This document shows positions 51,328 to 62,674 of a stretch of DNA of 64,000 nucleotides, one piece after another. Location: positions 62,001 to 126,000 of the forward strand of contig NZ_WPIK01000005.1 of NCBI RefSeq assembly GCF_009754915.1. The letters run 5' to 3'. The DNA is from Mucilaginibacter arboris. Its GTDB lineage: Bacteria; Bacteroidota; Bacteroidia; Sphingobacteriales; Sphingobacteriaceae. The position numbers were made by a program, and so were the translations under genes. Numbering within the stretch: position 1 is the stretch's first letter; the number at the start of each line of letters is the position of its first letter. The notes below the pieces were generated by a model that saw nothing but the letters and a program-made list of their open reading frames with translations, made no database searches and was not told the origin of the DNA.

Positions 51328-53508
51328 CTACCTCGCTCCCGGCGGACAATGTTCTTTTAAAAATTGGGTATAAGTGCTTGCCAAATGGCGCCTCGTTCCT
51401 GCACCTTCTGAAATGGAATGCGTTCTGTTTGGATAACTCATCAACTGAAAAACTTTGTTGTTTTTAATCAACTCGTTTATCATTTGCTCGGCGTTGTTAT
51501 AATGCACGTTGTCATCGCCCGTTCCATGAATCAGCAATAAATTTCCGCGTAAACCCTGAACATGACTTAAAGGAGATCCATCTACAAAATAATGTTTATC
51601 CTCCGGCAGCAAACCCATGTAACGTTCCTGGTAAATATTATCGTAGTTCAACTGGTTATCAACCGCGGCAACAGAAATACCGGTTTTGTAAATATCCGGG
51701 TATTGGAACATCAGGTTTAAGGTAGATGACCCGCCACCGCTCCAGCCCCAAACGGCAACACGGCTGGTATCAATATAAGGTCGTTTTAAAACTTCTTTCG
51801 CGCCCATTGCCTGATCGCGGATATTTAGCAAACCAATTTGATGATAAATTGCTTTGCGCCATTCGCGTCCTTTTGGTGCCGGCGATCCGCGGTTATCCAG
51901 CGAAGCATAAATATAACCATCGTTAGCCATATTGCCGGCGTATAAAAAGTTGAAACCTGTTCCGTAAGTATCTTTAACCGTTTGGTCGGCCGGTTCCCCA
52001 TAAACATAGAATACAATTGGGTATTTTTTGGCCGGGTCAAAGTTGGTTGGCTTTACCATCCAGCCGTCTATTGTTACACCATCTGCTGTTTTTACCCTAA
52101 AAAATTCCGGTTTATTAACCGTTGCATTACGAGGGCGGGAAGAAGCCGGATTATTGCCAATTGCCTGATGTGCAGGCAGGGAAACGACATCAGAAACAGG
52201 ATAAGTATAGCTGTTTGAAAAATCATGTAAAGCCACTTTTCCGTTAGGGGAAATATCGTACGAATGCGTTCCGGGTTCATCGGCTGGTGTAACCCGTTCT
52301 GCTTTTCCGCTTCCGTTTAAGCTGATTTTATAGAGGTAAGCTTGTGTAGCATTATCCGGCGAAGCCATAAAATAAATGATGCCATCTTTTTCGTCGATGC
52401 GTTCTATGCTCATTACATCAAAGTTGCCTTTGGTCAGCAGCTTTTCCTTACCATTTCTGTTGATATTGTAAATATGCCGCCAGCCATCTTTTTCGCTTAG
52501 CCAGATAAAACTTTTCCCTTGCTCTACCCAATCCCAACCTATCGCTTCCGCTTTTGCATCAATCCAGGCTTTATCAGTTTCGGCAGATACTGTTTTTACC
52601 TCACCAGAATTTGCATTGCATAACATGATCCTGCTTTCATTTTGCCTGCGGTTTAATTGCTGAATGATGAGTTCTGAAGAATTTGCAGCCCACTCCATCC
52701 GTGGAATATAATGTTGTACATCATCTCCCGGAACGTTCATCCAGGTAGTTTTACCATTACTTAACGAGATTACGCCAATTCTGCACCTGCTTGGATCTTG
52801 GCCAACAACAGGATATTCAACCGGAACCGTAAAAGGATAAAGCGAATCTGTTGTGTTCAGCATTAAATAATTTCTGATTTTATTGGCATCTATTTGCCAA
52901 TAAGCAATGGATTTTCCGTCGGGCGACCAGCGGAAACCGTCTCGGCAATCCAGTTCTTCTTCGTAAACCCAATCGAATGTGCCGTTTATCAGTTTTTTTG
53001 TTCCGTTTGATGTTAGTTTGCTAACTGTGCCTGATGCTATATCTTCTGTATAAATATTATGTTCGCTTACATAAGCAACTTTAGAAGCATCCGGAGAAAA
53101 TTTGGCAAACATTAAAGAAGAAGCAGGGCAATCCTTACCTATTTGTTTTAAAGTTTTTGTTGTGAGGTCTGCCACCCAGTAATCGCCCCGGGTGTTGTAG
53201 CGCCAAACTTTTTTGGTATTGGTGTAGATCAGTACTTTTTTGCCATCCTGAGAAAAAGCAAAACTGCGGATGGCAAGGGGTCCTGTTTTGCCCTGTGGTG
53301 TAAGCAATGCTGCATTTACCAGGGTAATGTCTTTAGATGGGCCAGCAATAGCTATTTGCACAATTGAACCATTTTGTGCCTGCATATAACTATTGCCGTC
53401 TTTTGTCCATTGCGTACCAGAACCAAACTGCGCGTTAGCTTGAAAAACAGTAACAAACTGAAAAATAAAGGCTGATAAAAACGTTGCCTTAAGTAGTTTT
53501 TGTATCAT
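51328..53508 (-). CDS. S9 family prolyl oligopeptidase (DPP-IV type)
   Basis: 726 residues from ATG 53508 (MIQKLLKATFLSAFIFQF signal peptide ending VFQANAQ); the longer frame to 53541 is not needed. N-terminal beta-propeller (repeated AFSQDGKKVLIYTN, KFSPDASKVAYVSE), then an alpha/beta-hydrolase domain with nucleophile GWSGGGS (about residue 590), Asp in HGTGDDNVH and His in SYPNRTHSI, the full catalytic triad. It cleaves X-Pro dipeptides, probably in the periplasm. Two ACAGT-type motifs fall inside (52082, 52586). Confidence 0.94.
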   Translation of the reverse strand: MIQKLLKATFLSAFIFQFVTVFQANAQFGSGTQWTKDGNSYMQAQNGSIVQIAIAGPSKDITLVNAALLTPQGKTGPLAIRSFAFSQDGKKVLIYTNTKKVWRYNTRGDYWVADLTTKTLKQIGKDCPASSLMFAKFSPDASKVAYVSEHNIYTEDIASGTVSKLTSNGTKKLINGTFDWVYEEELDCRDGFRWSPDGKSIAYWQIDANKIRNYLMLNTTDSLYPFTVPVEYPVVGQDPSRCRIGVISLSNGKTTWMNVPGDDVQHYIPRMEWAANSSELIIQQLNRRQNESRIMLCNANSGEVKTVSAETDKAWIDAKAEAIGWDWVEQGKSFIWLSEKDGWRHIYNINRNGKEKLLTKGNFDVMSIERIDEKDGIIYFMASPDNATQAYLYKISLNGSGKAERVTPADEPGTHSYDISPNGKVALHDFSNSYTYPVSDVVSLPAHQAIGNNPASSRPRNATVNKPEFFRVKTADGVTIDGWMVKPTNFDPAKKYPIVFYVYGEPADQTVKDTYGTGFNFLYAGNMANDGYIYASLDNRGSPAPKGREWRKAIYHQIGLLNIRDQAMGAKEVLKRPYIDTSRVAVWGWSGGGSSTLNLMFQYPDIYKTGISVAAVDNQLNYDNIYQERYMGLLPEDKHYFVDGSPLSHVQGLRGNLLLIHGTGDDNVHYNNAEQMINELIKNNKVFQLMSYPNRTHSISEGAGTRRHLASTYTQFLKEHCPPGAR

Positions 53509-53667
53509 GCAGGAATGAAATAAATCATGGAGATTAACCAAAGTAAGCCGATAAGCCTATCTTTTACAAGTAAAAATATTCATACAGTTTTTTTAGCAAA
53601 CCCAACTATTGCTTATTGCTAACAATATTAAATTTTTAATTAAAAACAAAAATTAAAATTTCACCAT

Positions 53668-54132
53668 TTAAGACAACAACCTTTGCCGTAATAAAAACTC
53701 CAATTGCCCATTGGAAACAGCCAGTTTATCGTTCATTTCTTTCAACTGCTGGTTGGCTTCATAAGCCTCAAAAGCTCTTTTTATCGTTGCATCCAACTCC
53801 TCTTCGTTCCAGGGCTTGGTTAAGTAATGATAAATTTTCCCTTTGTTAACTGCTTCTGTTACAGCACTTATGTCTGAATATCCGGTTAACAGGATACGCA
53901 TAGGATCAGGAAAACGTTCCAAAACTTTTTCTAAAAACTGCGTACCGGTCATGTTAGGCATCCGCTGGTCAGTAATGATAATTTCTACTGGTTCTGCTTC
54001 CAGTATTTTCATCGCTTCTATGGTATCAATAGCCGTAAAAACCTGGTATTTTATCCTAAATACAGCCTTAAAAGAAACCAGGTTGTTTTCCTCATCATCA
54101 ACATAAAGAATATTTATTTTTTTTTCTGACAT
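53668..54132 (-). CDS. Stand-alone response regulator receiver protein
   Basis: 154 residues: a CheY-like receiver with DDEEN acid pocket (12-16), phospho-acceptor D55 (TDQRMPN), T in LLTGYSD and K in YHYLTKPW, then a short helical tail (ATIKRAFEAYEANQQLKEMN) but no output domain. It closely resembles the receiver of the 59429 gene in sequence, including SFKA-F-x-Y and RILLTGYSDI blocks, so the two are likely paralogues. It is divergent from the E1-like gene, with a 142-nt shared region, and probably belongs to that module. Confidence 0.9.
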   Translation of the reverse strand: MSEKKINILYVDDEENNLVSFKAVFRIKYQVFTAIDTIEAMKILEAEPVEIIITDQRMPNMTGTQFLEKVLERFPDPMRILLTGYSDISAVTEAVNKGKIYHYLTKPWNEEELDATIKRAFEAYEANQQLKEMNDKLAVSNGQLEFLLRQRLLS

Positions 54133-54274
54133 GGTGTTGCTTTTAATATTAAATTTGGAAAGGAGCTACTACAAATATAATATTTACACTTTTCCATTAG
54201 GTTATTATTAATAACTAATATTAATTAAGCATAATTCTTTACCCTTAAAAAAAACTACAGTAATTAATCGCTCT

Positions 54275-56566
54275 ATGACCAACAATTTGTATCAACCACT
54301 ATTTTACAGATTAAATAATATTGCAGAAAAGCAGCAATATGAACTGTTATTACAATCCAACCCTGGTATTTACATATATGATGAAATAGCAGGACAGCTA
54401 AAAGAATTAATAAAAGCCTTAAATCCTTCTGTGAGAATTAAGGCAGAAGAATATCCAGAATTAATAAAAAAGCATGTTAATGGACAAAACCTGTTCGAAT
54501 ATGGGGTATGGGTTTACTATCCATGGAGTAACCGGTTAGTGCATGTATTGCCTGAAAAGGAGTTCATAGATTTACGTACTGCTGCAAATAGAAATAAAAT
54601 TACTACTTCAGAAAGAGACATCCTTAGTACAAAAAAAGTTGGTGTAATTGGTTTATCAGTTGGCCAATCAGTGGCGGTTACAATGGCATTGGAGCGTACT
54701 TGTGGAGAATTACGTATTGCAGACTTTGATACTTTAGAATTAAACAACCTTAACAGGATAAGAACAGGACTACATAATTTAGGTTTATTAAAAGCTTATT
54801 CTGTGGCTCGAGAAATATCAGAAATTGATCCTTTTTTTAAAGTTATATGTTATACAGAAGGTATTACAGAAGAAAATATAGATGATTTTTTTACAAAAGG
54901 GGGTAAATTAGATGCTGTTATTGATGAATGCGACGGAGTTGACATTAAAATCCTTTGCCGATTAAAAGCTAAAGAGCTCCAAGTACCCGTAATAATGGAA
55001 GCCAGTGACAGGGGAACTGTTGACGTAGAACGATTTGACCTGGAACCAGAAAGGCCAATAATGCATGGCTGGTTAAATCATTTAAAAATAGATTTTAATA
55101 TATTAAAAAATCTAAAAACAGCAGAGGAAAAGCTACCATATATACTACCTATCTCTGGGTTAGACAACCTCTCTTCGCGAATGAAGGCATCAATGGTAGA
55201 AATAGAAAGCACCATAACAACTTGGCCTCAATTAGCTAGTGCGGTTACTTTGGGTGGAGGAATTACTACAGATGTTTGCAGAAGAATATTTTTAGATGAA
55301 TTTCACGAGTCAGATAGATACTTTGTAGATATTGAAAAATTAATATGTGATAAGAATACAGTTAAACAAGATGAAACTTTACCCCAATCTGTAGAAACTA
55401 TTCAACATGAAGAAATAAATGCGCTAATAAAAGACGTAAATATTACAGCCACAAATGAACAGTTAGATTTAGATTATATTACCCTTAAGCAAATAGTTGG
55501 TGCAGCAATATTGGCTCCAACTGGTGGAAATTCTCAACCTTGGAAGTGGAGATATGAGTCAAAGAACCTTTATCTTTTTCACGACCCAGAACACAATGCA
55601 CCATTTGTAGATTTTAATAATACGGCTTCGTATATAGGTTATGGTACAGCAACCGAAAACCTTGTACTTAAAGCACATGAATTGCATTTAGAAGTTAAAA
55701 TTATACCTTTTCCCTTAAATATAGCCAGTAAACTCATTTCTATATTTCAATTTTTTAATAACGATAATTTAAATAATAAAGAAGGTTTAGAATTACATTT
55801 AGTTGATGAACTTGCAGAAGCAATTCCAGACAGGGTAGCAAATAGAAAACTCTCCCCTAAAATCCCTATAGAAGCAATCAGGCTAAATAAAATAATTTCG
55901 GCTGTAAAAACAGTACCAGGTGCTAATTTAAAATTCCTTACTAACGAGAAGGAGGTGGAAGCTATTGGCGAGATAATTGCAAAAGCTGATCGTATAAGAA
56001 TTATGAATAGAGCTGGTCATAAAGATTTTTTAGCTGAAACAATGTGGACTGATGAAGAAGCCGAAAAGCATAAACGTGGAGTAGAAGTTTCTTCTCTTGA
56101 CATTACACCTTCTGAACGTGTAGGCTTAAAAATTACTTCTGATTGGGAAGTAGTAAACCATTTGAATAAATGGCAGGCTGGAAAAGGACTCGAAAAACTT
56201 TCCCGTAAAGCTACTGCTTGTGCTTCTGCAATTGGATTAATAAGCATGGACAAACACAGCGTAGAAAGTTTTTATAATGGAGGAAGAGCCGTTGAAAGGG
56301 CTTGGCTTGCTGCTACAAAAAATAATATATCGTTTCAACCATTAAGTATTTCAACTTTCCTACTTAATAGGCTAGTTCACCAAGGCACACAGGCTTTTTC
56401 TGAAAATACAATTATAGAGCTAACTGAGATGAAAAAAGAGTTTGAAACACTTTTTTCATTAAAGGAAGATATGGGGAAAATATTTCTTTTCAGAGTATTC
56501 ATAGCAGATAATTCTCCTAAACGATCTTTAAGAGTACCTGTAGAGGAAGTACTTTCTATAGCATAA
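54275..56566 (+). CDS. ThiF/E1-like and nitroreductase fusion (Rv1355c family)
   Basis: 763 residues. An N-terminal region of unknown role (about 1-110) precedes an E1-like adenylation domain (about 110-340) with nucleotide-binding VGVIGLSVGQS (122-132) and the ADFDTLELNNLNR block (149-161, Asp and Arg). The C-terminal part (about 400-740) is a nitroreductase-like flavodomain with ILAPTGGNSQPW (412-423), the FMN-binding pattern. Such fusions are annotated in a family named after mycobacterial Rv1355c (MoeY), whose reaction is unproven. No molybdenum-cofactor genes are nearby. It is followed in the same direction by a GNAT-like gene 8 nt later. The gene is AT-rich. Confidence 0.82.
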   Translation: MTNNLYQPLFYRLNNIAEKQQYELLLQSNPGIYIYDEIAGQLKELIKALNPSVRIKAEEYPELIKKHVNGQNLFEYGVWVYYPWSNRLVHVLPEKEFIDLRTAANRNKITTSERDILSTKKVGVIGLSVGQSVAVTMALERTCGELRIADFDTLELNNLNRIRTGLHNLGLLKAYSVAREISEIDPFFKVICYTEGITEENIDDFFTKGGKLDAVIDECDGVDIKILCRLKAKELQVPVIMEASDRGTVDVERFDLEPERPIMHGWLNHLKIDFNILKNLKTAEEKLPYILPISGLDNLSSRMKASMVEIESTITTWPQLASAVTLGGGITTDVCRRIFLDEFHESDRYFVDIEKLICDKNTVKQDETLPQSVETIQHEEINALIKDVNITATNEQLDLDYITLKQIVGAAILAPTGGNSQPWKWRYESKNLYLFHDPEHNAPFVDFNNTASYIGYGTATENLVLKAHELHLEVKIIPFPLNIASKLISIFQFFNNDNLNNKEGLELHLVDELAEAIPDRVANRKLSPKIPIEAIRLNKIISAVKTVPGANLKFLTNEKEVEAIGEIIAKADRIRIMNRAGHKDFLAETMWTDEEAEKHKRGVEVSSLDITPSERVGLKITSDWEVVNHLNKWQAGKGLEKLSRKATACASAIGLISMDKHSVESFYNGGRAVERAWLAATKNNISFQPLSISTFLLNRLVHQGTQAFSENTIIELTEMKKEFETLFSLKEDMGKIFLFRVFIADNSPKRSLRVPVEEVLSIA

Positions 56567-56574
56567 ATATAATA

Positions 56575-57258
56575 ATGATCAGAATTCGAGCCTTTAGAGC
56601 AATAGACGAACCAGAAACTTGCGAACAATTTATTGAAGGTCATGTAAGGGTATTAAAAGCATTTAATATTACGATGATAACATCTGCTAAAGCAGAATGG
56701 ACAGAAGACCCAAACACATATGTAATAGTTGCAGAGTCCACTGACACGGGCAAAGTATTAGGTGGCGCTAGAGTCCAAGTTGCAGGTGGGAAACTCCCTT
56801 TACCTATTGAAACTGCTGTAGAAAAGTTTGATAAGAGTATATATTCAGTAATAAAAGACTATTCTAAAGAAGGTACAGCAGAATTGTGTGGTTTATGGAA
56901 CTCAAGAGAAATAGCAGGCATGGGAATTGGAAGTACTTTTTTAATTCGTACAGCCGTTTGCATAACAATACAACTTAACTTAAAAACATTATTTGCATTA
57001 TGCGCTCCTTATATTGTAGAGATAGCACTAAAAACAGGGTTTCATATAGCAACATTTTTAGGTAATGAAGGAACGTTTTACTACCCAAAAGAAGATCTTA
57101 TTGCAACAGCAGCAGTAATACCTGATATTACTACTTTGGATAGCGCTGACATCATCGAAAAATCAGAAATTTTCTCTTTAAGAGAAAATTTGAAACAAAC
57201 AAGACTAGAAGAAGGTAGAAGAAAATCATTTTATCTTGATTACGATCTTAAGCTGTAA
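56575..57258 (+). CDS. GNAT-like N-acyltransferase
   Basis: 227 residues. The fold shows VIVAESTDTGKVLGGARVQVAG as a GNAT strand pair, then AELCGLWNSREIAGMGIGSTFLIRTAV with the acyl-CoA-binding R-x-x-G-x-G-like loop, and a C-terminal basic tail. The layout recalls GNAT enzymes such as N-acyl amino-acid synthases. The donor and acceptor are unknown. It lies 8 nt after the E1-like fusion gene and 6 nt before the sensor kinase, so the three genes are almost certainly co-transcribed. Base composition is AT-rich, like its neighbours. Confidence 0.75.
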   Translation: MIRIRAFRAIDEPETCEQFIEGHVRVLKAFNITMITSAKAEWTEDPNTYVIVAESTDTGKVLGGARVQVAGGKLPLPIETAVEKFDKSIYSVIKDYSKEGTAELCGLWNSREIAGMGIGSTFLIRTAVCITIQLNLKTLFALCAPYIVEIALKTGFHIATFLGNEGTFYYPKEDLIATAAVIPDITTLDSADIIEKSEIFSLRENLKQTRLEEGRRKSFYLDYDLKL

Positions 57259-57264
57259 TAATTA

Positions 57265-59421
57265 ATGAAATTTATTTATATATACTTATTCTTAATTTTC
57301 GCTTCAACTATATCCTATGCACAGGATATAGTCATATTTAACAATCCTAATAAATTTATCAGCATAAGTGATAAAGTTGAAATTTTAGAAGACAAACAAA
57401 ATTTACTTTCAATAAAAGAAGTTATAGCTTCAAAACTATTTAAAAAAAGCTCTCAAAAAATTCCAAATTTTCAAATTACAAAATCATCGATTTGGATTAA
57501 ACTAAAGATATTAAATAACACTCAACTAAATAATTTAACCCTTGAGCTTCCATATCCTACAATAGATAGTATAAGTCTTATAAGTGTTATAAATGATAGT
57601 ACTTTTAATGTTGAAAATACAGGTGAATATATTCCCATATATAAAAGGACGTTTCATCATCAGAATTACGCCTTTAATTTAAATATTAAACCAAAAGAAA
57701 GTAAAATATACTTCTTAAAATTAAAAGCTTCTGAACAAATACAACTACCGCTATTATTAGGAAGTGAAAAATCTATTTTAGAATCTAATTATTCATTAGA
57801 TCTAATCTTTGGAATTTATGCAGGAATTATTTTAGTAATGCTTTTTTATAACCTTTTTGTTTATTTTTCAATTAAAGATAATACTTACCTTCTTTATGTA
57901 TTATATATACTATCTGTAGGTTTTACTCAAGGTAGTGTACAAGGTTATACCGCACGTTTTCTTTATCCAAATTCAATTCATTTAGCAAACTTAATGATTG
58001 TAGTAGCTCCTGTATTCTCCGGAGTTTTTGCTATACTTTTTGCTAAAAAATTTATTTTAATAAAAAAACATACCCCTATTTTAAACAGTATTCTATCTAT
58101 AATCATTGTATTCTATTTCATAATATTAACTCTTGGTTTTTGGGGATTTTACCATTTATCGGCACAACTGGTTCAAATTAATGCAGGCCTTGCATCAATT
58201 ACTGTTATGGCTACAAGTTATATAATATTAAGAATGAATTATAAACCTGCCTTATTTTTTTTCATAGCATGGTCAATATTCCTTACTAGTGTAGTAATTT
58301 TTGTTCTACGAAATTTTAATATTTTACCATATAATACTTTTACATATTATGCTTTACAAATAGGATCAGCATTAGAAGTAGTTTTACTTTCTTTCGCTTT
58401 AGCAGATAAAATCAACATCTACAAAAAAGAAAAAGAAGAATCTCAAGCTCAGGCATTATCCGCACTACAAGAAAATGCTCGAATAATAAAAGAACAAAAC
58501 ATTACCCTTGAACGTAAGGTAGAAGAACGTACCGATGAGTTGGTAACTACAAACCATAATCTTAATAAAACACTTACAGATCTTAAAGAAGCACAAATAC
58601 AATTGGTAGAAGCAGAAAAAATGGCTTCTTTAGGCCAGTTAACGGCCGGTATTGCACATGAAATAAACAACCCTATCAACTTTGTTACATCAAACATAGC
58701 ACCGCTTAAACGTGATGTAGATATATTAGTTGATGCCATTTTTACTATAGAATCTGTAGGTTTGTCTAACATTTCAACTGATGAAAAGCAACAGCAAATT
58801 GAGGATTATAAAGAAGACATCGACCTGGATTACCTGAAAATAGAAATTAATCATCTTTTAAATGGTATCCATGAAGGCGCTAACAGAACGGCTGATATTG
58901 TAAAGGGCTTAAAAATATTTTCACGCCTGGATGAGGATGATTTGAAAAAAGCCGATATTAATGAAGGTTTGGCATCAACTTTAATTATAGCCAACAATTT
59001 AATTGGCAGTAAAATACAGGTTATTAAAAATTATGGTGATATTCCGCCAATTGATTGTTACCCTGGCAAACTAAACCAGGTATTTTTAAACATTATTTCT
59101 AATGGCGTATTTGCTATAAATGAGAAGTTTGGCGATCAATCGGGCGGTATTTTAGAAATTACTACCCAATGTGATGAGCAGAACTTATATATTAAGATAA
59201 AAGATAACGGGACAGGGATGAGTGAGGAGACCAAAAAGAAAATATTTGAACCCTTTTTTACAACAAAAAATGTAGGTGTAGGTACTGGTTTAGGTATGTC
59301 TATAGTTTATAATACTATTAACAAACACAATGGGCAAATTTACGTAAATTCGGCCGAAGGCGTAGGAACAGAGTTTATATTAGAATTACAGCTTCAGTTT
59401 AAAGAAGCTGCAACTATTTAA
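57265..59421 (+). CDS. 7TMR-DISM sensor histidine kinase
   Basis: 718 residues: signal peptide (about 1-19, ending SYAQ), a periplasmic DISM-type beta domain (about 20-170), seven membrane helices (about 180-375), a coiled coil (about 395-450), then a HisKA domain with phospho-acceptor H465 (GQLTAGIAHEINNP) and an ATPase domain (NIISNGVFAI, DNGTGMSEETKKKIFEPFF, GVGTGLGMSIVYNTI). DISM domains bind carbohydrates or other small extracellular ligands. The sensor half is very AT-rich (11 of 60 bases G+C at 57841-57900), whereas the kinase half resembles the rest of the genome (20 of 60 at 59041-59100), a compositional break within the gene. Confidence 0.93.
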   Translation: MKFIYIYLFLIFASTISYAQDIVIFNNPNKFISISDKVEILEDKQNLLSIKEVIASKLFKKSSQKIPNFQITKSSIWIKLKILNNTQLNNLTLELPYPTIDSISLISVINDSTFNVENTGEYIPIYKRTFHHQNYAFNLNIKPKESKIYFLKLKASEQIQLPLLLGSEKSILESNYSLDLIFGIYAGIILVMLFYNLFVYFSIKDNTYLLYVLYILSVGFTQGSVQGYTARFLYPNSIHLANLMIVVAPVFSGVFAILFAKKFILIKKHTPILNSILSIIIVFYFIILTLGFWGFYHLSAQLVQINAGLASITVMATSYIILRMNYKPALFFFIAWSIFLTSVVIFVLRNFNILPYNTFTYYALQIGSALEVVLLSFALADKINIYKKEKEESQAQALSALQENARIIKEQNITLERKVEERTDELVTTNHNLNKTLTDLKEAQIQLVEAEKMASLGQLTAGIAHEINNPINFVTSNIAPLKRDVDILVDAIFTIESVGLSNISTDEKQQQIEDYKEDIDLDYLKIEINHLLNGIHEGANRTADIVKGLKIFSRLDEDDLKKADINEGLASTLIIANNLIGSKIQVIKNYGDIPPIDCYPGKLNQVFLNIISNGVFAINEKFGDQSGGILEITTQCDEQNLYIKIKDNGTGMSEETKKKIFEPFFTTKNVGVGTGLGMSIVYNTINKHNGQIYVNSAEGVGTEFILELQLQFKEAATI

Positions 59422-59428
59422 AAAAGAG

Positions 59429-60520
59429 GTGAGCAAGACTGATAAAATAAAAATTTTGTATTTAGATGATGAGGTGAACAACCTGATCGGTTTTAAGGCC
59501 TCTTTTAGGGTTGATTATACTATTCTGGTAGCTAATAATAGTACCGAGGCTTATCAGCACCTCGAAAAAAACCCTGATATACGTATTATATTCTGCGACC
59601 AGCGGATGCCTGATAAAACAGGTGTTGAATTTTTTGAAGAAGCAAGAAGCCTTTACCCTTTACCTATACGCATTTTATTAACAGGCTATACGGATATTGA
59701 ATCTGTAATCGATTCGATTAACCGGGGCAATATTTTCAGGTATGTAAAAAAACCCTGGACTAACGAAGATATTTTATCGTGTATAGACCAGGCCAATAAG
59801 TTTTACATGGTTAACTCCATGCTATCTTTAAAAAACATTGAATTACAAAAAGCTTATAATGAACTGGAGAAGTTTGCCTATAGCGTAACACACGATATCC
59901 GCGGCCCGTTACTAAGTATTTTAGGCGCAGCAGATGTTGCCCAGTATATTGATGATATTGAAGAGATTAAAGAGATGCTCCGGCTGATGGAAAAGTCTGT
60001 AAAAAAGCTGGATACTTTTATTCTCAACATTCATGATTACTATAGTTTAAAACAAGGCGAGCTGCAAATAAAAGAAGTCAACTTTGAAGATGTTGTAAAA
60101 GACCAGACGGATAATTACAAGATGACTACCAACATGAAAAATATTAATTTTATTGCACATGTTGAACAGAATGAAACTTTCAGGACAGATGAAATGTCCC
60201 TTAAAATTATACTTAGCAATTTACTCTCTAACGCCTTTAAATATCAGAAGAAACACAACAGAAATAAATTAGTAGAGTTAGCTATACAAGTAAGGCGCGG
60301 AATAGCAACCTTACAAATAAAAGACAATGGAATAGGCATCCAAGAAAAACATATTGACGATATTTTTAATATGTTTTACAGGGCCACAGCAGAAGAAGTT
60401 GGATCTGGCATCGGGTTATATAACGTTAAAGATGCCGTAGCTAAAATTGGGGGCGAAATAAAAGTAACCTCTGTTTTTGACGAAGGGACAACTTTCTTAA
60501 TTACGATACCTACAAAATAA
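59429..60520 (+). CDS. Receiver-histidine kinase hybrid protein
   Basis: 363 residues with GTG start preceded by AAAGAGG. Residues 1-125 are a receiver (DDEVN, D57 in CDQRMPDKTG, LLTGYTD, YVKKPW). A linker leads to HisKA with H155 (FAYSVTHDIRGPLLS) and an ATPase domain (SNLLSNAFKYQKK, DNGIGIQEKHIDDIFNMF, GSGIGLYNV). An N-terminal receiver before a kinase suggests it receives phosphate from another kinase, perhaps the 7TM sensor encoded 7 nt upstream, and passes it on. GC content is normal, unlike the two or three genes before it. Confidence 0.92.
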   Translation: MSKTDKIKILYLDDEVNNLIGFKASFRVDYTILVANNSTEAYQHLEKNPDIRIIFCDQRMPDKTGVEFFEEARSLYPLPIRILLTGYTDIESVIDSINRGNIFRYVKKPWTNEDILSCIDQANKFYMVNSMLSLKNIELQKAYNELEKFAYSVTHDIRGPLLSILGAADVAQYIDDIEEIKEMLRLMEKSVKKLDTFILNIHDYYSLKQGELQIKEVNFEDVVKDQTDNYKMTTNMKNINFIAHVEQNETFRTDEMSLKIILSNLLSNAFKYQKKHNRNKLVELAIQVRRGIATLQIKDNGIGIQEKHIDDIFNMFYRATAEEVGSGIGLYNVKDAVAKIGGEIKVTSVFDEGTTFLITIPTK

Positions 60521-60524
60521 CGGG

Positions 60525-60926
60525 ATGCAGCAAAAAATTAATTTTATTATAATTGATGATAGCAAAGAAGATTGCTATCTTATTAAAAAGAGGTTAGAAA
60601 CTTTAGATAAAAATTTCAATATTAAATCTTTTCTTAGTGCGCAAGAGGCTTACGATTATATAAACCATACAGGTATTAATACCCCTGCTGATTCAAGAAA
60701 AAATATTATTATCCTGGATATTTATATGCCGCTAATGGATGGGTTTGAATTTGTAGAAGAGTTTGAAACCTTGCCAAAAAACGTACAGGACAATTATTTG
60801 ATTTGTGCACTTACATCTTCTATCAATAAAATTTATATTGATAAAATAAGCACTTATAATTCTGTTAAGTATTTTTTAGAAAAACCTATTAAAACAGAAA
60901 GCTTGTTAGATTTGATTGAAGGATAA
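60525..60926 (+). CDS. Stand-alone response regulator receiver protein
   Basis: 133 residues of a CheY-like receiver: IIDDSKED (9-16) acid pocket, phospho-acceptor D65 (ILDIYMPLMDG), T in CALTSS, K in FLEKPI. There is no output domain. It lies 4 nt after the receiver-kinase gene and is the likely terminal phosphate acceptor of the module. It is the closing gene; a GAAGC-type motif and other repeats lie downstream. Confidence 0.9.
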   Translation: MQQKINFIIIDDSKEDCYLIKKRLETLDKNFNIKSFLSAQEAYDYINHTGINTPADSRKNIIILDIYMPLMDGFEFVEEFETLPKNVQDNYLICALTSSINKIYIDKISTYNSVKYFLEKPIKTESLLDLIEG

Positions 60927-61240
60927 GCCAGGCAGAAATGTACGCATGCTTCTTTTATGGCATAAAAATTTGTGTTGAAAGCCTCGCCCCCTCCCTCTCC
61001 AAAGGAGAGGGAGCCATGGTTTGTTACCTTTCGCTTTTCTAATTTTAACCTTATTATTCTGCCTTTCAGCTTCCTATTGTTAAAAAAGTATTTTTTAGGT
61101 TTCCCCTTTGAAGCGCGTTAGGGGGATGACTACCTAAAACCTATTTCGTAATTTTTAACAACAACAAATTTTATACACGTAAAAAGAGCATTGCTAATTT
61201 AACAATGCTCTTTTCACAGATAAAAAACTTATAACCAGAA
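60927..61240. other. Intergenic region with repeats between the signalling module and pyk
   Basis: It holds a reverse GAAGC-type motif (60945-60959), a perfect GC-rich hairpin CTCCCTCTCC / GGAGAGGGAG (60991-61013), a related degenerate copy near 61100-61130 (TTCCCCTTTGAAGCGCG, then TTAGGGGGATG), and the pyk terminator at 61182-61214. The CTCCCTCTCCAAAGGAGAGGGAG style of repeat recurs in many Bacteroidota genomes. No gene seen. Confidence 0.7.
61182..61214 (-). terminator. Terminator of pyk
   Basis: AAAAGAGCATTG (61182-61193) and CAATGCTCTTTT (61203-61214) form a perfect 12-bp stem with a nine-base loop, just after the pyk stop on the minus strand. The arm sequence resembles the GAAGC-type motif with one base change. 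Confidence 0.85.
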
Positions 61241-62674
61241 TCAGATTATACTAACTTTAATCATGTTAGTACGTCCTTTTTTCTCCATCGGGATAGCTGC
61301 TGTGTTAATCACTACATCGCCTCCTTCTACTAAATTCTGGCTTTTTAAAATTTCATTTATCTCCTGGATACTACCATCAGTAGAGTTGGTATCAAATTTA
61401 TCATAATAAAAGCCCCTTACACCCCATAACAAACTCAAAGTCCTAAGCAAATGGCGGTTCCTGGTAAAAATAAAAGTATTTGCTTTTGGGCGGTGGCTTG
61501 AAATTTCAAACGCTGTATAACCAGACGAAGTCATGGTTACAATACCTGCTGCATTGGTTTGTTCAGACAAAATAACGGCTGCGTTACAAATCGCATCAGA
61601 CAAGATAGTAGGGGACTTTTCGTTTATCGGTTTGGGTGTATTAAACAAGTAGCCGTTTTCTTCTACATTCCGGATAATCTTTTGCATGGTTTCAATTACA
61701 ATTACCGGAAATTCTCCTACTGAGGTTTCTCCGCTTAGCATTACCGCATCAGCACCATCTAAAACCGAATTTGCAACGTCGTTAACTTCTGCACGGGTTG
61801 GGCGTGGTGTTGTAATCATACTTTCCAGCATTTGGGTAGCCACAATTACCGGTTTAGAAGCTGCGCGGCATTTGCGGGCAATCATTTTTTGCAATAACGG
61901 AACTTGTTCCATCGGCATTTCTACCCCTAAATCTCCACGGGCAACCATTACACCATCAGTTACTTCAATAATCGCATCAATATGCTCAATCGCTTCCGGT
62001 TTTTCTATTTTAGCAATAACACGCGCTACTTTACCGCTTTTGCTAATTACACGTTTTAAATCGATCACATCCAGTTCTGTGCGCACAAACGATAAACCAA
62101 TCCATTCTACATCGTTTTTAAGTGCAAATTCCAGATTATGCAGATCTTCTTCCGTTAAACTTGGTATAGATACTTTGGTATTAGGCAGGTTAACCCCTTT
62201 TCGGGAAGTTAAAATACCACCATGTATAACCTCACAAACAACAGTATCTTTATTATTGGTTTCTTTAACACGCATTTGCAGCTTACCGTCGTCCAGTAAA
62301 ATGATCTCGCCGGCAACTACATCTTTTGGAAAGTTTTCGTAAGTAATATAAATCTGGTTTTCATCGCCTACACATTCTTTAGTGGTCATGTTAATGGTAG
62401 TTCCGTTAATTAACTGAACGCCACCTTCTTTAACCAAACCAATCCTGATCTTTGGCCCTTGCAAATCTGCCAGAATGCCCACATTCAGTTTATATTGCTC
62501 ATTAATTGCACGAATATTATCAATTGCTACCTGATGGTCTTCCTGTTTACCGTGAGAAAAGTTAAGTCGGCAAACATTCACCCCAGCCCTGATTAAAGAC
62601 AGCAGCATCTCTTTTTGTGATGAAGCCGGTCCGAGCGTGGCAACTATCTTAGTTCTTTTATGCGAAATTTTCAT
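61241..62674 (-). CDS. pyk: Pyruvate kinase
   Basis: 477 residues, single-copy type. MKISHKRTKIVATLGPASS opens the enzyme; VCRLNFSHG, the catalytic-site IEKPEAIEHIDAIIEVTDGVMVARGDLGVEMP and the C-terminal domain follow. It makes pyruvate and ATP from phosphoenolpyruvate and ADP in the last step of glycolysis. The reading frame is intact and of standard length. It is transcribed toward the signalling module. Confidence 0.98.
   Translation of the reverse strand: MKISHKRTKIVATLGPASSQKEMLLSLIRAGVNVCRLNFSHGKQEDHQVAIDNIRAINEQYKLNVGILADLQGPKIRIGLVKEGGVQLINGTTINMTTKECVGDENQIYITYENFPKDVVAGEIILLDDGKLQMRVKETNNKDTVVCEVIHGGILTSRKGVNLPNTKVSIPSLTEEDLHNLEFALKNDVEWIGLSFVRTELDVIDLKRVISKSGKVARVIAKIEKPEAIEHIDAIIEVTDGVMVARGDLGVEMPMEQVPLLQKMIARKCRAASKPVIVATQMLESMITTPRPTRAEVNDVANSVLDGADAVMLSGETSVGEFPVIVIETMQKIIRNVEENGYLFNTPKPINEKSPTILSDAICNAAVILSEQTNAAGIVTMTSSGYTAFEISSHRPKANTFIFTRNRHLLRTLSLLWGVRGFYYDKFDTNSTDGSIQEINEILKSQNLVEGGDVVINTAAIPMEKKGRTNMIKVSII

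Follow-up and report, generated by a model that had tools for sequence, protein, structure and literature searches.

Oxazolone pathways have been published as TrzAS (Rv1356c-Rv1355c), TyzACB, and OxzAB (PMC12856293, PMC10404671, as far as their available text goes). In the available text of PMC12856293, the authors note the likeness of N-acyl oxazolones to acyl homoserine lactones, call their physiological role a major unresolved question, and place cyclic di-GMP (c-di-GMP) genes beside trzAS in Mycobacterium tuberculosis. The published products are labile to acid. Here we describe a six-gene locus of Mucilaginibacter arboris (Bacteroidota; genome of 4.16 Mb in 83 contigs) in which enzymes of this kind lie next to a membrane histidine kinase. 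The stretch analyzed, called the window throughout, comprises 64,000 nucleotides (nt) of RefSeq assembly GCF_009754915.1 (contig NZ_WPIK01000005.1, positions 62,001 to 126,000). Like the published loci, as the available text describes them, the window has an N-acyl amino acid synthase-like gene adjoining a ThiF-cyclase/flavin-oxidase fusion of the same equivalog family, with an 8-nt gap between them, and judged by sequence and predicted fold the pair matches the published two-gene oxazolone pathway. Unlike those loci, so far as that text covers them, the Bacteroidota loci nearly always carry a seven-transmembrane (7TM) kinase phosphorelay rather than c-di-GMP genes, and 43 of the 94 that we compared have no oxidase. 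In a set of 102 complete loci, enzyme type changes together with the sensor of the kinase; the kinase's catalytic part and the relay keep closer to the host lineage.

The neighborhood is widely conserved, and the first of the refutations named in the initial annotation does not apply. Of 201 same-family genomes, 50 exceed the cut-off of profile NF005901, and 83, the window's own included, match at no less than 360 bits; in a sample of 395 genomes of the phylum, 5 pass the cut-off. The 94 other loci consist of stretches around the remaining 82 same-family matches, 7 stretches of the phylum sample, and 5 taken from contigs of named genomes; a component was counted when it matched anywhere in the stretch at a set score. 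The acyltransferase was found in 92 of them (at least 40 bits), as was the 7TMR-DISM kinase (at least 30 bits; 91 loci at 60 bits). The kinase lies one open reading frame (ORF) from the ThiF gene in 49 loci and two in 43, always on the same strand (91 of 91 scored). A kinase like the receiver-kinase is present in 87 stretches, a receiver like the terminal one of the window (RR3) in 62, and the oxidase half in 51. Gene order varies and content stays: the acyltransferase comes before or after ThiF, and the first receiver gene, RR1, is divergent upstream or convergent downstream. One locus (L002) has a triple fusion, another (L111) a split one, and L155 is cut by a contig end; L084 is without a called acyltransferase, probably because the ORF caller chose an overlapping frame. 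Accidental linkage was rejected: enzymes and kinase stand together again in 92 of the 94 loci, and the window's genome encodes only two 7TMR-DISM proteins. The guanine-plus-cytosine (GC) content of the sensor-coding part is below that of the flanks in 85 of 96 loci measured. The 43 loci with ThiF but no oxidase half in the stretch (L115-L157) nearly always have the same acyltransferase and kinase; they might make a saturated oxazolone, or another product.

The second enzyme is exchangeable, which makes the system broader than the fusion of the window. When the 201 genomes were searched with the sensor part of the kinase, close relatives were found away from strong synthase matches; all 28 such kinases above 280 bits (L168-L195) were fetched, with three weaker ones (L196-L198) and L207, whose stretch ends inside the kinase. 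At 23 loci, an S-adenosylmethionine (SAM) methyltransferase of one family (Pfam identity checked on two loci) takes the slot between acyltransferase and kinase; none of the genomes that carry these loci has a strong synthase match. At L168, from the window's own genus, a FAD_binding_4 oxidoreductase fills the slot; this locus occupies the same chromosomal site as the window's, with flanks 83%, 93%, and 77% identical. The simplest guess for the substrate of the methyltransferase and the oxidoreductase is an N-acyl amino acid. In L173 (8014-11664), a module-type kinase lies 9 nt downstream of a lactone-oxidase-like FAD protein unlike that of L168, with no acyltransferase or receiver-kinase beside it; this is possibly a further allele type.

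Trees were built for 102 loci (46 with ThiF-oxidase, 33 with ThiF, 22 with methyltransferase, and 1 with FAD oxidoreductase), a set that omits 18 of the 119 fetched loci tried (component missing, split, contig-cut, or miscalled) and adds the window. The fewest changes of enzyme type needed were 6 on the tree of the sensor and 7 on that of its 144-residue extracellular domain, compared to 21 for the acyltransferase, 27 for the catalytic part of the kinase, and 26 for the whole relay; shuffled labels gave a mean of 46. IQ-TREE reproduced the counts for sensor (6) and relay (26), and in it the sensors of the methyltransferase type form one clade (n = 22, support 100, 11 genera). On relay data, the grouping of the methyltransferase loci in one clade is rejected (p-AU 1e-154, for 17 of the 22 against 24 sampled others). 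Genus labels behave in the opposite way, with 20 changes on the relay and 32 to 33 on the sensor. More than one enzyme type occurs within eight genera, and different alleles stand at one chromosomal site, with at least two flanking genes in common, in 25 of 207 same-genus mixed pairs (6 genera, 19 pairs in one).

Sequence identities give the same picture in single pairs. Between the window and genome G027, the extracellular domain is 38%, the membrane domain 50%, and the acyltransferase 51.5% identical, against 80% for the catalytic part, 84% for RR1, and 85% for the receiver-kinase. L117, a ThiF allele, and L183, a methyltransferase allele of the same genus at the same site and between the same flanks, are 24% and 34% identical in the extracellular and membrane domains, 69% in the acyltransferase, and 79%, 86%, and 92% in catalytic part, receiver-kinase, and RR1. 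The means over all loci are 26% (extracellular), 38% (membrane), 50% (receiver-kinase), 51.5% (acyltransferase), 59.5% (catalytic), and 64% (RR1); over the whole set the sensor diverges faster than the relay, and the acyltransferase does not surpass the receiver-kinase in divergence. With enzyme and sensor exchanged jointly and the relay closer to the host lineage, the locus has the look of a polymorphic signaling locus whose signal type and receptor change in concert.

What might the enzymes make? The 763-residue fusion, which the initial annotation had called E1-like/nitroreductase, matches NF005901 ("Rv1355c family protein") from end to end (768.9 bits, cut-off 476; residues 3-762 on profile positions 8-720 of 722). 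Within it, ThiF (PF00899) is found at E 7e-16 and nitroreductase (PF00881) at 23.2 bits, slightly below the cut-off of 23.5. It is 31-33% identical to plasmid-borne mycobacterial, rhodococcal, and nocardial homologues. TrzS of Mycobacterium smegmatis is reported, in the available part of the source, to be impaired by loss of D217, an ATP-contacting Asp in the ThiF half, or of R540 in the flavin site. Their likely counterparts in the fusion, equated by an inferred column mapping made without the M. smegmatis sequence, are D220, kept in all 57 full-length homologues, and R575, kept in 54. We read the fusion as a predicted ThiF-cyclase/flavin-oxidase of the TrzS/OxzB kind. A molybdopterin or thiamine role, as in older MoeY/ThiF-type labels, is not favored, given the match of the full protein to the Rv1355c equivalog and its acyltransferase neighbor; nor did anything point to a cofactor, which had been the other product first suggested. 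A phage origin was set aside with 0 tblastn matches in 50,697 phage records. Residue 590 of the fusion (window positions 56042-56044), in the oxidase half, is Met where 55 of the 57 full-length homologues have Arg; this could tune or weaken desaturation in the window's species. A damaged oxidase was considered and is not claimed, since the likely catalytic residues are kept and 3 of 31 conserved oxidase columns deviate (fourth in the ranking of the 57, tied with others).

The acyltransferase has no Pfam match above cut-off, PF00583 (GNAT) reaching E 0.02, and the FeeM profile PF21926 matches none of six family members at E up to 1. Its earlier description as GNAT-like is thus weak by sequence and is upheld by the predicted fold. 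With an AlphaFold2 model from a six-sequence alignment (pLDDT 87.4, pTM 0.87), the first seven Foldseek matches were all BjaI or FeeM (TMq 0.52-0.62). FeeM also gave the top structural Z (17.1, 174 residues aligned); the ordinary GNATs 1xeb (Z 16.6) and ElaA (Z 16.1) tie with it by Z, with only 145 residues aligned each, and LasI (Z 15.9, 182 aligned) and TofI (Z 15.4) follow. For TyzA, FeeM and BjaI are likewise the closest structures in the available text of PMC12856293 and PMC10404671. The model of the acyltransferase resembles N-acyl amino acid and autoinducer synthases such as these.

The kinase next door has the domains of a 7TMR-DISM sensor kinase, as first called: PF07696 (7TMR-DISMED2, E 1.1e-27), PF07695 (7TMR-DISM_7TM, E 8e-47), and PF02518 (HATPase, E 5.3e-21), with HisKA at 23.4 bits, below its cut-off of 26.9. 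In the structure model of its sensor part (pLDDT 80.4), the extracellular domain matches the periplasmic domain of RetS, 3jyb (TMt 0.81, Z 15.7, 136 residues aligned, 2.5 Å). The likeness of the membrane domain to Wntless and G protein-coupled receptors (Z up to 15.1) is near the chance level for helical bundles and was not used. The phosphoacceptor residues are kept almost throughout the 102 loci: H465 of the kinase, D55 of RR1, and D57 of the receiver-kinase in all of them, and H155 of the receiver-kinase in 100. The receiver and linker of RR1 resemble the receiver of the NosR family NF053512 (169 bits over residues 8-145, the full-length cut-off of 400 being far higher). Domain profile scans found no membrane domain in the receiver-kinase and no DNA-binding domain in it or in the two receivers, so the initial annotation was right to see no DNA-binding output within the locus; output would pass through protein-protein contacts or onward phosphotransfer. 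A c-di-GMP output of the actinobacterial kind was rejected, GGDEF having had no match in the window's genome. GGDEF genes lie near the fusion in two of four actinobacterial loci read (L159, a GGDEF gene; L163, a GAF-GGDEF-EAL gene); given the absence from the window's genome, these neighbors are at most an analogous association with signaling.

We imagine that the module works as follows. The acyltransferase, to judge from its fold and linkage, would join an acyl chain to an amino acid. The ThiF half of the fusion would activate the carboxylate with ATP and close an oxazolone ring, which the flavin half would desaturate, as expected from the TrzS/OxzB family. The central step is that the product, a precursor, or a derivative would be bound by the extracellular or membrane sensor of the adjacent kinase; going by its domains, the kinase would then set the phosphorylation of RR1, of the receiver-kinase, and often of RR3. 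The earlier suggestion that the enzymes make a small molecule sensed by the linked kinase is favored by the conserved neighborhood, by the autoinducer-synthase-like acyltransferase, and by the co-segregation of enzyme and sensor. We think it probable that this is a self-contained locus for producing and receiving a signal, with exchangeable, pherotype-like alleles and N-acyl amino acid chemistry, in which binding of the product by the sensor is the inferred part. One can envision a broader picture, for which we would put the chances at about even: an undescribed form of communication in Bacteroidota, in which an autoinducer-synthase-like enzyme and an interchangeable tailoring enzyme (cyclase-oxidase, cyclase, methyltransferase, or FAD oxidoreductase) give a type-specific signal read by the 7TMR-DISM kinase, and in which dialects arise when tailoring gene and sensor half are replaced in a single cassette, the chromosomal site staying the same in several genera.

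Among other explanations, the one that survives best is that the kinase senses another cue, such as envelope or antibiotic stress or the state of the membrane, and controls how the lipid is made or used, the genes being neighbors through a common regulon and the sensor types differing with the cue. Proteobacterial oxazolones are induced by sub-inhibitory antibiotics, and links to stress are discussed, in the available text of PMC12856293. However, such an arrangement does not predict that enzyme chemistry should track the sensor so closely (6 versus 26 changes), and we regard it as unlikely.

Several observations weigh against a self-contained signaling locus. In L109 the enzymes occur with no kinase, and six related kinases (L193-L198) are without either enzyme. 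The window's own pair has diverged far even from the homologue in its genus (44% identity in the fusion, 33% in the extracellular domain). In the sensor tree, several backbone branches are weak, and the window's sensor stands beside ThiF-only sensors with support of 34; 182 of the 207 mixed same-genus pairs share no two flanking genes within the fetched stretches. Cells contain more of the tryptazolones and the supernatant more of the acyl-tryptophans, according to the available text of PMC12856293, a point that bears on which molecule would reach an outer sensor. The tailoring gene also lies close to the sensor-coding end of the kinase, adjoining it in 67 of the 102 loci, and recombination in conserved flanks could move both.

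This proximity is the basis for supposing that linked recombination is all there is: exchange anchored in conserved flanks would move the enzyme-plus-sensor core as one tract, with no functional match. The identity of the sensor, lower than that of any other part of the module, suits this idea, which leaves the fast divergence of the sensor unexplained. In the 67 loci with the order acyltransferase, exchangeable enzyme, kinase, enzyme type goes with the sensor (4 changes) rather than with the acyltransferase (17 changes), although both adjoin the enzyme. Further evidence comes from partial Mantel correlations on distances, a method whose p-values run low and serve as rough guides. For the 35 loci in which the acyltransferase stands between exchangeable enzyme and kinase, the enzyme correlates with the sensor, given relay and acyltransferase, at 0.24 (p 0.004), and with the adjacent acyltransferase, given relay and sensor, at 0.04 (p 0.34). 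For 44 ThiF-type loci of the other order, the acyltransferase correlates with the sensor, given relay and exchangeable enzyme, at 0.42 (p 0.001), and with the adjacent enzyme at -0.07. In both orders, then, the sensor tracks the enzyme that is not its neighbor, and adjacent enzymes are uncorrelated once the sensor is accounted for, which argues against linkage alone.

The distance controls are not clean, and they belong with the contrary points above. In 25 fusion-type loci with the acyltransferase next to the kinase, the fusion correlates better with the acyltransferase (0.32) than with the sensor (0.19), and in this gene order all trees are similar (2 to 4 changes). Over all ThiF-type loci, the exchangeable enzyme correlates with the catalytic part at 0.25 and the acyltransferase with RR1 at 0.36. 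In the 35 loci, the enzyme correlates with the catalytic part as well as with the membrane domain (0.41 each) and better than with the extracellular domain (0.18); in the 44, the acyltransferase correlates better with the receiver-kinase (0.33) than with the extracellular domain (0.27). In sum, the evidence is support, not proof, for a functional match, and an explanation by linked recombination alone seems to us distinctly improbable. Still less credible, and very improbable in our view, is that the products are antagonistic (antimicrobial or surfactant-like) compounds and the kinase a sensor of the cell's own product for immunity or tolerance rather than cell-cell signaling: N-acyl tyrosine derivatives of Stieleria maiorica are antimicrobial (available text of PMC12856293) and rapid allele turnover suits kin discrimination as well as signaling, but the ORF listings show no additional gene of constant size accompanying the module, a weak point in that the functions of flanking ORFs were not searched.

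A signaling locus thus remains our preferred reading, and its layout in the window is given in Table 1. The gene order, AT-richness, and close spacing first described all hold: the six genes are open throughout in an ORF check of the window, the gaps in the forward run are 8, 6, 7, and 4 nt, and the seven 1-kb windows of 54001-61000 have 26.0-35.4% GC, compared to 33 to 44%, mostly 36-44%, in the others.

Table 1. Features of the M. arboris locus and its flanks (window coordinates)
Feature	Position	Strand	Basis
Peptidase-like gene (DPP IV-like, named by eye); flank, synteny marker	51328..53541	-	83% identical to L168 counterpart
RR1, single receiver with C-terminal extension, divergent from synthase operon; phosphoacceptor D55	53668..54132	-	PF00072 E 8.6e-19
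AT-rich intergenic stretch between divergent genes, presumed to carry promoters for RR1 and the synthase-kinase operon	54133..54274		Read by eye
TrzS/OxzB-like fusion (predicted), N-terminal ThiF-type cyclase and C-terminal nitroreductase-fold flavin-dependent oxidase	54275..56566	+	NF005901, PF00899
N-acyl amino acid synthase-like acyltransferase, GNAT fold, FeeM/acyl homoserine lactone synthase-like; putative TrzA/OxzA counterpart	56575..57258	+	AlphaFold2 model, Foldseek
7TMR-DISM sensor histidine kinase; phosphoacceptor H465	57265..59421	+	PF07695, PF07696, PF02518
Sensor part of kinase, residues 1-395: RetS-like extracellular domain (about 36-165) and seven-helix membrane domain	57265..58449	+	Structure model; trees
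Receiver-histidine kinase, GTG start; D57 and H155	59429..60520	+	PF00072, PF00512, PF02518
RR3, single-domain receiver, optional	60525..60926	+	PF00072 E 3e-11
Pyruvate kinase-like gene (named by eye); flank, synteny marker	61241..62674	-	93% identical to L168 counterpart

Relatives of the fusion were also seen in other settings. In the Brevibacillus family (L199, 7144-11761, and L200), a full ThiF-oxidase fusion lies beside a divergent histidine kinase, PAS domains being confirmed in the neighboring kinase for L199 only; the L199 fusion also adjoins a FeeM-family gene (PF21926, E 2.3e-16). These loci place a kinase next to such enzymes in another phylum. This family was not counted as a second kinase-linked lineage, because other genes separate the kinase in its ThiF-only loci. 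A Nitratidesulfovibrio plasmid (L162) has a large, distant ThiF-family protein (about 20% identity) beside XrtA/PEP-CTERM exopolysaccharide genes. The second copy of the fusion in genome G587 (L206:8837-11158) lacks the kinase module; its neighbors are a CBS/GCS2-domain protein and an ORF named by eye as MscS-like.

How much of this has been described? The initial annotation knew of no system of this layout. That does not hold for the enzymes, a pair matching OxzAB/TrzAS oxazolone biosynthesis, and in the literature searched it does hold for the pairing with a kinase. No link of oxazolone-type enzymes to a kinase was found in the literature searched, outside which lie subscription papers, the original OxzAB report included. 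The words "kinase" and "two-component" do not occur in the available text of PMC12856293 and PMC10404671, nor "methyltransferase" in that of PMC11580390, on N-acyl alanine methyl esters. The stieleriacine, kyonggic acid, and thalassotalic acid clusters offer a further likeness, an N-acyl amino acid synthase near ThiF and nitroreductase genes and, in one strain, a UbiE-like methyltransferase. As far as the available text of PMC12479983 shows, these enzymes accumulate in one cluster, unlike the Bacteroidota alleles, in which they are alternatives; "two-component," "histidine kinase," and "response regulator" are absent from its available main text. The enzyme chemistry is known from relatives; the literature searched appears to contain no description of the receptor pairing, of its broad conservation across Bacteroidota, or of the joint exchange of enzyme and sensor.

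If our reading is true, N-acyl oxazolones would gain a biological role, and a cognate receptor kinase beside the enzymes would open the question of that role to direct tests beyond the pathogens in which it has been studied. The 7TMR-DISM receptors would have candidate ligands, and the peptide pherotype systems a small-molecule counterpart. By exchanging one enzyme and its matching sensor together, related species of Bacteroidota seem to switch chemical "dialect."

The locus is best read as a signaling locus of a known general kind, with a synthase beside a receptor kinase and the two polymorphic in step. RetS, whose periplasmic domain the extracellular domain resembles, belongs to the Gac network; unlike RetS-type kinases, the window's kinase is linked to synthase genes. 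In LuxM/LuxN and CqsA/CqsS, a signal synthase gene lies beside that of a membrane histidine kinase receptor that feeds a phosphotransfer relay. The same arrangement is predicted here from the genes, with other synthase chemistry and a second tailoring enzyme, a 7TMR-DISM sensor, a separate receiver-kinase, and output-less receivers. In the agr and ComQXPA pherotype loci, the signal-modifying enzyme and the sensor of the receptor are polymorphic together, and kinase core and regulator are conserved. Tailoring enzyme and sensor vary together around a conserved kinase core in the Bacteroidota loci as well; unlike the peptides of agr and ComQXPA, the signals expected here would be N-acyl amino acid derivatives, and what is exchanged is a whole class of enzyme.

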